A stretch of DNA of 64,000 nucleotides from Flavobacteriaceae bacterium (GTDB lineage: Bacteria; Bacteroidota; Bacteroidia; Flavobacteriales; Flavobacteriaceae): NCBI GenBank assembly GCA_947459635.1, contig CANHEA010000002.1, forward strand, positions 1-64,000, read 5' to 3'. The notes beneath the pieces are model-generated. The model saw only the letters and a list, made by a program, of their open reading frames with translations. It was not told where the DNA came from and ran no database searches. Positions 11,312-64,000 of the stretch are shown in pieces (position 1 is the stretch's first letter; each line of letters opens with the position of its first letter). The position numbers were made by a program, and so were the translations under genes.

Positions 11312-11375
11312 GGTAGCTATTTCCCGCTTTCCGCAGTATCTCTCCGAGGATACTTGCTGCAATCGGGGCTAGGGC
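11312..11375 (+). repeat. Dispersed structured intergenic element, copy B
   Basis: GGTAGCTATTTCCCGCT...TATCTC/GAGGATA...AATCGGGGCTAGGGC. Ends are shared with three other copies in the window. Confidence 0.8.
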
Positions 11376-12908: not shown

Positions 12909-12995
12909 GGAGAGTTGCCTGAGTGGCCGAAAGGACATGTTTGCTAAACATGCGTATGGGAAACTGTACCAAGGGTTCGAATCCCTTACTCTCCG
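12909..12995 (+). tRNA. tRNA-Ser(GCT)
   Basis: Cloverleaf with acceptor GGAGAGT/ACTCTCC, long variable arm, anticodon loop TTGCTAA and T-loop GGTTCGAATCC. Confidence 0.95.
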
Positions 12996-13008
12996 CTTTT
13001 TTTACGCT

Positions 13009-13083
13009 CGGGGTGTAGCGTAGCCCGGTTATCGCGCCTGCTTTGGGAGCAGGAGGCCGCAGGTTCGAATCCTGCCACCCCGA
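13009..13083 (+). tRNA. tRNA-Pro(TGG)
   Basis: Acceptor CGGGGTG/CACCCCG, anticodon loop TTTGGGA and T-arm GGTTCGAATCC. Confidence 0.95.
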
Positions 13084-13120
13084 CAATCAAACTTTTCCAT
13101 TTAAGTTTTAAAAGAAAAAT

Positions 13121-13194
<74 letters not shown>

Positions 13195-33466: not shown

Positions 33467-34537
<1,071 letters not shown>

Positions 34538-34551
34538 TATATTATATTTAC

Positions 34552-34585
34552 AAAGTCCCATTTTCATCAATGGGACTTTTATTTT
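34552..34585 (+). terminator. Intrinsic terminator after gap
   Basis: AAAGTCCCA-ttttcatcaa-TGGGACTTTT. Confidence 0.85.
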
Positions 34586-34587
34586 TA

Positions 34588-34667
34588 GGAGCTATTTCCC
34601 GCTTTTCACTAAATCTTTTGCGCCGAACGCCGGCCCAAAAGGATATCGTTACAATCGGGGCTAGGAC
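34588..34667 (+). repeat. Dispersed structured intergenic element, copy A
   Basis: (T)AGGAGCTATTTCCCGCT..ATCTTTTG/CAAAAGGAT..CAATCGGGGCTAGGA. Confidence 0.85.
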
Positions 34668-34777: not shown

Positions 34778-35629
34778 ATGAAACTACTCGTAGACAGCGG
34801 CTCCACCAAAGCCGATTGGATTGCCATCGATGAAGCAGGAAAGGTGCTTTTTACCACGCAAACCCTGGGTTTAAATCCAGAAGTTTTAACGAAAGAAGAA
34901 ATTATTCATCGCCTTGATGACAAATTTGATATTTCTCACAACAAGGACAAAGCCAGTCATTTGTTCTTCTATGGAGCCGGTTGCGGGACCGATAGAATGA
35001 AGGAGTTCCTAACCCAGGTATTTATAGAATATTTTAGTAAAGCCGCCGTTACTGTTCATGAAGATACTTACGCTGCAGTCTACGCAACGACTCCAAAAGA
35101 CGAGAAAGCCATTGTTTGTATCCTAGGGACTGGTTCAAATTGTAGTTATTTTGACGGAAAAATATTGCATCAAAAAGTACAATCCTTAGGTTATATCGCC
35201 ATGGATGATTGCTCCGGAAACAGATTTGGAAGACATATGTTGCGAGGCTATTATTTCAAAAAAATGCCAATCGAATTAGCCAAAGAATTTGAAGAAGAAT
35301 ACAATGTAGATCCAGATTACATCAAGAACAATCTCTATAAAGAACCAAATCCAAATGCATACTTAGCCACATTTGCCAAGTTCCTCATCAAGCACAAAGA
35401 CAATCCCTATTGCCAAAATATTATTCACGCGGAGATGAAAGATTTCGCAGAAAATTATATCATGCAGTTTGATAATTGTCGCGATGTGTTAGTTCATTTT
35501 GTTGGTTCAATTGCGTTCTACTTGAAAGACGAGCTCGAAGAAGTTTTGGAAAAGTATGATATTAAAGTAGGTAATGTTCTCCGCCGACCAATAGACGGTT
35601 TGATTGCTTATCATATCTTAAACAAATAA
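34778..35629 (+). CDS. BadF/BadG/BcrA/BcrD-type ATPase, probable N-acetylglucosamine kinase
   Basis: 'LLVDSGSTKADWIAID', 'VCILGTGSNCSYFDG' and 'MDDCSGNRFGRHML'. Confidence 0.85.
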   Translation: MKLLVDSGSTKADWIAIDEAGKVLFTTQTLGLNPEVLTKEEIIHRLDDKFDISHNKDKASHLFFYGAGCGTDRMKEFLTQVFIEYFSKAAVTVHEDTYAAVYATTPKDEKAIVCILGTGSNCSYFDGKILHQKVQSLGYIAMDDCSGNRFGRHMLRGYYFKKMPIELAKEFEEEYNVDPDYIKNNLYKEPNPNAYLATFAKFLIKHKDNPYCQNIIHAEMKDFAENYIMQFDNCRDVLVHFVGSIAFYLKDELEEVLEKYDIKVGNVLRRPIDGLIAYHILNK

Positions 35630-52526: not shown

Positions 52527-53597
52527 ATGGCAGGAAATAGTTACGGTACACTTTTCAAACTCACGACTTTTGGAGAATCCCATGGCGAAGCACTCGGCGG
52601 CATCATTGACGGTTGTCCACCTAATATTTTGCTTGATTTTGTCGCCATCCAATTCGAAATGTCCAGAAGAAAACCAGGACAATCCGCCATAGTAACACAA
52701 CGCAAAGAAGACGATGACGTACAATTCCTTTCCGGAATCTTCGAAGGCAAAACAACAGGAACGCCCATCGGTTTCATCATCCCAAATACCAACCAAAAAT
52801 CAGAGGATTATTCGCATATCAAAGACACTTATCGCCCAAGCCACGCCGATTATGTCTACGAGAAAAAATATGGAATTCGCGACTATCGCGGCGGCGGAAG
52901 AAGTTCAGCGCGCGAAACGGCATGTCGTGTGGTAGCTGGAGCCATTGCAAAACAAGTGCTGCACCATATCAAAATCAATGCTTTCGTTTCTTCAGTCGGA
53001 GAAATCTTTATCGATAAACCTTATCAACAACTCGATTTTTCTCAAACCGAAAACAACGCCGTTCGCTGTCCAGATCCTGAAACTGCCACGAGAATGGAAG
53101 AACATATCAAAGAAATTCGCAAACAAGGCGATACTGTTGGCGGAACGGTCACTTGCGTGATTCAAAATGTACCGATCGGATTGGGTGAGCCAGTTTTCGA
53201 TAAACTTCATGCTGAATTGGGAAAAGCGATGCTTTCTATCAATGCGGTGAAAGGTTTCGAATACGGTAGCGGCTTCTGCGGCGCCAGAATGAAAGGCAGC
53301 GAACACAACGATTTGTATTTACCCGACGGGACCACCAAAACCAATCTTTCTGGCGGTATTCAAGGTGGAATTTCAAACGGAATGGACATCTACTTTCGAG
53401 TGGCGTTCAAACCCGTCGCGACACTCATTCAAAAACAAGAAACATTAGACAATCAAGGAAATATCGTCGAAATGCAAGGCAAAGGTCGTCATGATCCGTG
53501 CGTGGTCCCGCGAGCTGTTCCCATCGTCGAGGCCATGGCGGCAATAGTTCTAGCTGATTTTTATTTGCTCAACAAAAGATATAATAATAATGTTTAG
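52527..53597 (+). CDS. aroC: Chorismate synthase
   Basis: '[22 protein letters not shown]', '[15 protein letters not shown]', '[23 protein letters not shown]' and '[18 protein letters not shown]'. Confidence 0.97.
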
Positions 53598-53702
53598 GAG
53601 CTGCTTCCTGCTGTTCGCTCTATCTTTTGCGCCACACGAGTGAAGCGAACTGACGAAGTATACCATGGCACAAAAGGATGCCGCTACCATCAGGGCTAGG
53701 GC
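53597..53702 (+). repeat. Dispersed structured intergenic element, copy C
   Basis: (TA)GGAGCTGCTTCCTGCT..ATCTTTTGCGCC/GGCACAAAAGGAT..CATCAGGGCTAGGGC. Begins in the aroC TAG stop codon. Confidence 0.85.
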
Positions 53703-63196: not shown

Positions 63197-63307
63197 GCCC
63201 TAGCCCCGTTAGCAGTGTAAATCCTTTTTTGTTTAATGTGAAGCAACTCGAATGCACTCGGTGTGACAAAACAAAAAAGATTGGAACGGATAGCGGGAAC
63301 AAGCTCC
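63197..63307 (-). repeat. Dispersed structured intergenic element, copy D (minus orientation)
   Basis: Minus-strand reading: GGAGCTTGTTCCCGCTATCCGTTCCAATCTTTTTTGTTT...AAACAAAAAAGGATT...AACGGGGCTAGGGC. Begins in the TAG stop codon of the upstream nucleoside phosphorylase gene. Confidence 0.85.
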
Positions 63308-64000
63308 TATTGCTTCGCCAATTTATCTAAAGTGTACGCTATCAAAGCATCGACGGCTTTGTATGGATCTTCGCTGAAAGTTCCCGAAGCACGGTTGGCG
63401 ATGATGGCGTTGAGCGACAAACATTGGTGTCCGAGCAATGAACCGAGTCCATAGATGGCAGCGGTTTCCATTTCGAGATTCGTGATTCTCGTTCCGTTGG
63501 TTTTGAAATTATCCATCTTATTATTCAGATTTTCATCTTGAATGTTCAGACGAAGCACGCGACCTTGTGGACCGTAGAATCCGCCAGCAGTTGCTGTGAT
63601 TCCTTTGTGCATCTGTGGACTTTCGATGATCTTTTCTAATTTCTCGCTGCAGGCAATTACGTAAGGTCGACCTTTTTTTGCATCCCAATTGGTGTGCGTA
63701 ATGAATTCATTTTCCATTTGTTGATTGGAAATTTCGTCGATCAAATAGGAGCGGAGCATGTTATCGAGACCCAAGCCAAAAGTAGACATCACAAAACTAT
63801 CTACGGGAATATCGGCTTGCAACGAACCTGAAGTACCGATTCTGATGATGTTGAGCGAGGTTAGCGCTTCTTTTGGTTTTCTGGTTTCTAGATTGATGTT
63901 GACCAAAGCGTCTAGTTCATTCATCACGATATCGATGTTGTCTGGACCGATTCCTGTTGACATGACGGTAATACGTTTGCCTTTGTAGATTCCGGTTTGC
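63307..64000 (-). CDS. Nucleoside phosphorylase (purine/uridine phosphorylase family), 5' truncated by window
   Basis: 'TVMSTGIGPDNIDIVMNELDALVNI', 'NIIRIGTSGSLQADIPVDSFVMS' and 'RITNLEMETAAIYGLGSLLGHQCLSLNAIIANRASGTF'. Frame is open to the window edge. Confidence 0.92.
   Translation of the reverse strand, partial: QTGIYKGKRITVMSTGIGPDNIDIVMNELDALVNINLETRKPKEALTSLNIIRIGTSGSLQADIPVDSFVMSTFGLGLDNMLRSYLIDEISNQQMENEFITHTNWDAKKGRPYVIACSEKLEKIIESPQMHKGITATAGGFYGPQGRVLRLNIQDENLNNKMDNFKTNGTRITNLEMETAAIYGLGSLLGHQCLSLNAIIANRASGTFSEDPYKAVDALIAYTLDKLAKQ

Follow-up and report, generated by a model that had tools for sequence, protein, structure and literature searches.

Four Flavo-1 copies in the window

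The gap gene for glyceraldehyde-3-phosphate dehydrogenase (33533-34537, plus strand; PF00044/PF02800) and a gene for a BadF/BadG-type ATPase (34778-35629, plus strand; PF01869) flank an intergenic repeat, copy A, which is one of four look-alike sequences in the window, i.e., the 64,000-nucleotide stretch of Flavobacteriaceae DNA analyzed here. A hairpin and T-tract resembling an intrinsic terminator of gap (34552-34587, plus strand) abut copy A. The element body (TAGCCCCGATTG...AGCGGGAAATAGCTCC) lies on the minus strand at 34588-34663 and matches RF01705 at 34591-34666. Read on this strand, copy A has a left arm of the form TAGCCC[p1]GAT[p2]GnARYG..ATC (34642-34663), a conserved bulged C (34641), a variable apical stem-loop (TTTTG...CAAAA; 34616-34640) whose loop is swapped between copies in relatives, and a right arm, GATTTAGTGAAAAGCGGGA (34597-34615). 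Two covarying pairs join the arms, namely p1-q1 at 34657/34600 and p2-q2 at 34653/34604. The 3' end is oligo-A (TAAAAATA; 34580-34587), which is the T-tract of the plus strand.

Comparison with Rfam 15 using cmscan placed all four sequences in an already known family, Flavo-1 (RF01705). Copies A, D (63197-63307, plus strand; match at 63198-63304) and C (53597-53702, minus strand; match at 53600-53701) scored 70.0, 67.5, and 64.8 bits, respectively, all above the gathering score of 42 bits. Copy B (11313-11375, minus strand), a minimal element with both arms intact and a very short apical stem, scored 36.0 bits, just under the gathering score, with an E-value of 1.8e-6 in 201 nt. The right end of copy C provides the TAG at which the chorismate synthase gene (52527-53597) stops, and that of copy D overlaps the stop codon of the gene at 63307-63963 (minus strand). 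Elsewhere in the window, three tRNA genes are clustered at 12909-13194 (plus strand).

The initial annotation had described four copies at these positions with shared ends, a variable stem, and a single bulged base, all of which are present, and the compensatory switch that it saw in copy C (CCCG/CGGG to CCTG/CAGG) is real. Its consensus for the shared ends captured the sharing but contained small errors: copy B starts with GGTAGC rather than TAGGAGC, copy A ends in GGGGCTAGGAC, and copy D has CTAACGGGGC. It was mistaken in assigning the element to no named family. Flavo-1 was first catalogued in 2010 by Weinberg et al. as a Bacteroidetes motif, with ratings of 'y' for RNA, 'n' for cis-regulatory, and 'n' for switch (PMC2864571), and Rfam-based tallies of 'small RNAs' place it among the more abundant families (PMC9029176). 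The Rfam entry, a 76-position model of type 'Gene; sRNA', agrees with the copies described here in strand, arms, pairing, and taxon. Beyond that entry, these copies are numerous, occupy fixed slots, exchange their loops, and have an oligo-A end as well as a weak upstream extension; there is also a long form of ~150 nt, with an apical domain that is an insert to the model.

Abundance and taxonomic range

Flavo-1 is a dispersed, intergenic, non-coding structured repeat. The window's own genome (G000, a 2.68 Mb draft) contains at least 145 matches, which is a lower bound since 150 of 792 candidates were scored. A pattern for the left arm matched 115 times in this genome, and 0 times when the pattern was read backwards. 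Flavo-1 was present in 35 of 37 genomes of the same genus (G000 included), with anywhere from 1 match to more than 65, and had zero matches in G018 and G020. It also occurred in five genomes from other families of the order, spread over three families, and in 0 of 14 control genomes. The genomes were drafts or MAGs, and the genes around elements were simple ORF calls. Four of the Flavobacterium contigs (L249, L259, L268, and L315) belong to public MAGs that are mislabelled, being titled Rhizobium sp., Bifidobacterium breve, or Candidatus Nitrotoga.

Fold, covariation, and folding strand

On the Rfam strand, Flavo-1 is one long hairpin in which conserved A.G/G.A mismatches fall between isolated Watson-Crick pairs. 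Further up lie a bulged C and then the apex, which is either a variable stem-loop or the second conserved domain of the long form. We analyzed pairing in 50 short copies from a single genome, that of the window, comprising 900 pair cells. The named pairs formed in 97.9% of cells versus 86.5% after shuffling, and the covariation score was 0.359 versus 0.133, with none of 500 shuffles matching it. Shifting the partner columns by 1-3 positions left only 38-53% of cells paired.

All four Watson-Crick pairs were used at two positions among 168 copies from two genomes. At p1-q1 (CCC[p1]GAT..AGC[q1]GGA) the counts were 71 T-A, 63 C-G, 20 A-T, and 8 G-C, and at p2-q2 they were 65 A-T, 54 G-C, 40 T-A, and 6 C-G. 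Conserved purine mismatches separate the isolated pairs: within 5'-ARYG-3'/5'-ARYG-3', A opposes G in 154 of the 168 copies and G opposes A in 146 of 168, and the A facing G after p2 is retained in 167 of 168. The bulged C, which is the unpaired G on the strand read by the initial annotation, persists in 161 of 168. Pairing, covariation, and bulge retention support the earlier claim that this is a selected folded element rather than chance. Genome-wide loss of the stem or bulged base, named in advance as contrary evidence, was looked for and did not occur.

The strand originally proposed to fold was the wrong one. The Rfam matches, the asymmetry between G-U and A-C, and the G.A mismatches all favor the opposite strand, which is minus for copies A, B, and C and plus for copy D. 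Across apical stem positions 1-8 of the Rfam strand, G-U outnumbered A-C by 53 to 11, or about 5:1, and the pooled ratio was 57:13 (P about 1e-7). Because such asymmetry is not expected of a cruciform, it argues that a single strand, the Rfam one, is the molecule that folds. The other strand would hold C.U and A.C mismatches in place of the conserved purine mismatches.

Copies of ~150 nt also occur; these contain a second conserved domain at the apex, AnAGC-GACC-NNN-GGAA-GCTCnT, which the RF01705 model handles as an insert. Within the genus, this motif lay between Flavo-1 arms in 32 of 33 instances examined, at fixed distances to the arms of about 57-61 and 53-55 nt. Twenty long copies shared a common fold of 39 pairs, 25 of which had changes on both sides. 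Pairing occurred in 91.5% of cells versus 73.6% after shuffling (0 of 500 shuffles matched), with covariation of 0.478 versus 0.151, and fell to 45-56% when partners were slid, although both controls are somewhat flattering because the structure was derived from the same alignment. The long form was found at 1-18 copies per genome in 16 of 37 genomes searched, including L356 (2861, plus), L357 (2680, plus), L358 (2533, plus), L360 (999, minus), and L361 (2100, plus) in G036, as well as L352 (1035, plus) and L353 (986, plus) in G000.

Element ends and gene context

The conserved span of Flavo-1 extends from about TGCCC-TAGCCC to AGCTYC-TAAAAA (also written AGCTCC-TAAAAA). An oligo-A run after the element was enriched across every gene context, and its length peaked, at a mean of 5.6 A versus 2.2 in control sequence, where the following gene has its start facing the element. 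We rejected the idea that this run is merely the borrowed T-tract of a neighboring terminator, since it was strongest where no terminator is expected. The ends also do not suit an integron attC site: TAGCCC and AGCTCC lack the GTT of the R' core (GTTRRRY), and the copies are dispersed rather than in arrays.

Flavo-1 could act within the UTRs of adjacent genes, either in cis-regulation or in RNA stability, or it could be a transcription terminator. Genes whose 3' end faces the right end of the element often stop beside it (within 10 nt in 30 of 58 cases), the stop codon sometimes being built from the element's own TAG, as with copies C and D, and there was no comparable crowding of stop codons at the left end. 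However, divergent gaps were as frequent as convergent ones in G000 (20 and 16, in addition to 69 co-directional), with no clear orientation bias. Among the co-directional copies, 40 were antisense and 29 sense, which does not amount to a preference (P = 0.23). An intrinsic terminator was rejected given that neither strand has a T-tract after the hairpin, the Rfam strand having the A-run and the other strand GGGCA. No neighboring gene family recurred beyond common paralogues, and on this evidence a role in the expression of adjacent genes is unlikely. We also found no replication-strand bias, and hence none towards the lagging strand, in two complete genomes, G036 and G065, which weakens the case for a role in replication-coupled single-stranded DNA.

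Evolution in place and loop exchange

Paired bases change together while the fold is kept, and copies are inherited at fixed slots. When 30 loci from G015 were compared with 30 from G065, about 12 slots were shared, with coding flanks that are mostly 83-97% identical. In the ten pairs that could be parsed, arms were 0.88-0.98 identical, whereas the non-coding flanks (26-70 nt upstream and 15-65 nt downstream) were 0.50-0.91 identical, mostly 0.50-0.75. That the arms are more conserved than the adjacent flanks implies they are held in place by selection. No arm pair was broken at p1, p2, R, or Y in these ten comparisons. L396 and L445 carry the same loop; over ~80 nt, one pair has switched fully from T-A to C-G, a second from A-T to C-G, and a single other base differs. 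L399 and L430 differ by a change from AC/GT to GT/AC.

Apical loops were often exchanged whole between copies of one genome. For example, the loop CTTTTGTGGTGGGGTTCACCACAAAA was present in four G065 slots having differing p1/p2 arm states, and the G015 orthologues of these slots carry other loops. Loops of ~50 nt occurred in 53 of 168 copies (about a third) and frequently contain a further palindromic repeat of the form GCCCCTCGACTGCGCTCGGGGTGACA; they were seen, for example, in copies C and D (53597-53702 and 63197-63307), L041, L047, and L051. In a separate subtype, comprising L399, L401, L403, and L409 of G015 and their G065 orthologues, ~35 additional nt separate the right arm from the terminal GCTCC (GGGACTGAACGT...TTCTGCTCC), and there is a conserved upstream block.

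Slot sharing between genomes was judged from BLAST anchors. For G000 and G001, whose flanks are ~75% identical, about 30 of 112 copies lay in the same gene gap in G001 with the same orientation and a similar distance, a count that omits one further pair in opposite orientation. Copies sharing a slot were no more alike than random copies (identity of 0.72 versus 0.74). The p2 position differed in 20 of 27 parsed slots and was still Watson-Crick in 19 of those 20.

We traced the slot of copy A, which follows the gap terminator, via the BadF/BadG-type ATPase gene in 80 species, giving 109 orthologous loci of which 106 were placed in a tree. The slot was occupied in about 16 species or loci of 106, which clustered on the tree and included F. 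branchiophilum and F. lotistagni. Elsewhere there was only a short gap, mostly with a hairpin terminator. Occupancy labels on the gene tree required 8 changes versus 15 when shuffled, and one of the 8 may stem from an unlabelled duplicate record (L259). These changes imply that losses, repeat gains, or both have happened at this slot.

Since slot copies resemble random copies and the tree needs several gains or losses, what distant species share could be a preferred insertion site (a T-tract or stop codon) that was hit more than once, and not an inherited copy. In a rival account, Flavo-1 would be an old and inert mobile repeat, with new copies entering its slots over and over, such that its structure mirrors recent activity and not selection in place; related species with different subtypes at the copy A slot (L116 and L255) fit this account. 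However, closer pairs inherit their arms, and sometimes a whole loop, in place while the flanks diverge (L396/L445, L399/L430, L407/L423, and L261/L263/L264), which makes general refilling an improbable explanation. Most of the evidence bearing on mobility indicates old copies that were inherited in place.

Search for a mobilizer

The initial annotation had proposed that the element might be mobile. Its dispersed copies lend this indirect support, but no mobilizer was found, nor any clear target duplication or recent burst. The median copy was 76% identical to its nearest neighbor of the same length. With regard to the terminal inverted repeats and target-site duplications that mark a MITE or other DNA transposon derivative, the two element ends differ from one another, and direct repeats averaged 4.9 nt versus 4.5 nt in shuffled sequence, a slight excess at most. 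Viral contigs held no exact matches to the left arm. We rejected an autonomous, ORF-bearing version of kilobase length after reading 16 stretches of G000 and G036 with unlisted left arms, in which a right arm lay 26-140 nt from each genuine left arm.

A more specific proposal is that a RAYT/Y1 (HUH) transposase uses Flavo-1, in the form of a single-stranded hairpin, as its REP-like substrate. REP/BIME sequences associated with RAYT are, like Flavo-1, intergenic, present in high copy, strand-specific, and folded into an imperfect hairpin with conserved mismatches. The bulge of Flavo-1 fits this proposal as well, as does a TAG just 5' of the hairpin foot, resembling the REP beside RAYT genes in these genomes (TAGCGCGGAT...). 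In place of the GTAG of RAYT systems there is a conserved TAG, usually preceded by C or T. Flavo-1 differs from REP/BIME in being larger and more complex, and no RAYT association was found for it. The RAYT genes of G000 and G036 adjoin their own, different REP. Y1 presence does not match Flavo-1 presence either: G004, G029, and G030 are rich in Flavo-1 without a Y1 gene, and G018 has a Y1 gene without Flavo-1. Scanning 20 Y1 loci uncovered 3 Flavo-1 copies nearby, which is about background. With no association in the window's own genome, a search of 60 genomes, or these 20 loci, we rejected RAYT/Y1 as the mobilizer and hold it quite unlikely that Flavo-1 is such a substrate.

Two observations were made in the course of this search. 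The REP of Flavobacterium RAYT genes (L031, 1-800; L327, 2983-4566), TAGCGCGGATTTGCAATCCGTGCCC, is unrelated to Flavo-1 apart from a similar TAGC..GGAT start. L326 (3210-6024) contains two near-identical IS200-type Y1 transposase genes with a Flavo-1 left arm behind each; the first copy is interrupted past that arm, apparently through a nested insertion with duplication.

Interpretation

Rfam's label of 'Gene; sRNA' implies that every copy encodes a small RNA acting in trans. The RNA-like fold, G-U tolerance, and strong covariation are compatible with this label, but there are at least 145 dispersed copies and the upstream flank logos displayed neither a consensus promoter nor a promoter-like block. 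In addition, RNA-seq of F. psychrophilum matched Flavo-1 indistinctly in sense or antisense, with many copies outside of transcripts (PMC9723704). We therefore judge the sRNA gene to be very unlikely. Least probable is a SINE-like retroposon, in which reverse transcriptase copies a structured A-tailed RNA into DNA, as the RNA-like fold and intrinsic oligo-A (even where no terminator is expected) are countered by target-site duplications at no more than a slight excess, the lack of a clear recent burst, and the absence of ORF-bearing long copies from the stretches checked.

The explanation we consider best, though with only about even confidence, is that Flavo-1 is an old, non-autonomous, cis-acting structured repeat kept in place as a folded strand that a putative factor reads. 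It would have spread long ago, probably once, through a putative enzyme recognizing the folded single strand. Its upkeep today would be mostly purifying selection on the fold, because a putative trans-acting factor would bind the folded strand, whether as single-stranded DNA or as a passing transcript. Flavo-1 would then serve as a structure in cis and would not encode a trans-acting small RNA. The data establish the family, the folding strand, the fold, the dispersal, and the conservation in place; the reader of the fold and the original mobilizer are inferred, as neither a binding factor nor a mobilizing enzyme was found.

The ERIC and BOX repeats of enterobacteria and streptococci are old, structured, intergenic sequences of about 100-150 bp with no coding capacity. 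Flavo-1 is similar to them in its size, structure, intergenic location, lack of coding capacity, and age. Unlike them, it has many separate covariations at isolated pairs and swapped apical loops. Tentatively, Flavo-1 may be what can be seen of a system of strand-specific hairpin docking sites that spans the chromosome, every site being selected where it stands and read by a putative structure-specific factor, although we regard this broader reading as doubtful. Its modules would be the outer arms of Watson-Crick and G.A pairs, the exchangeable apical loops, and the AGC-GACC-NNN-GGAA-GCT domain of the long form, evolving via coordinated pair switching and loop conversion. To our knowledge, this combination of features occurs in no known class of bacterial repeat.

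What is new here is the folding strand, pair switching in place, fixed slots, loop swaps, and the second domain of the long form, together with the finding that neither RAYT transposases nor viral contigs, nor the replication strand or gene orientation, showed an association with it. These results suggest that calling Flavo-1 an sRNA is misleading and makes the number of sRNAs in Flavobacteria look too high. The folding strand and usable element ends (TGCCC-TAGCCC ... AGCTCC-TAAAAA) are now available, and the unmodelled long form could serve as bait for a binding protein. The named species pairs allow loss, loop exchange, and compensatory switching to be watched.
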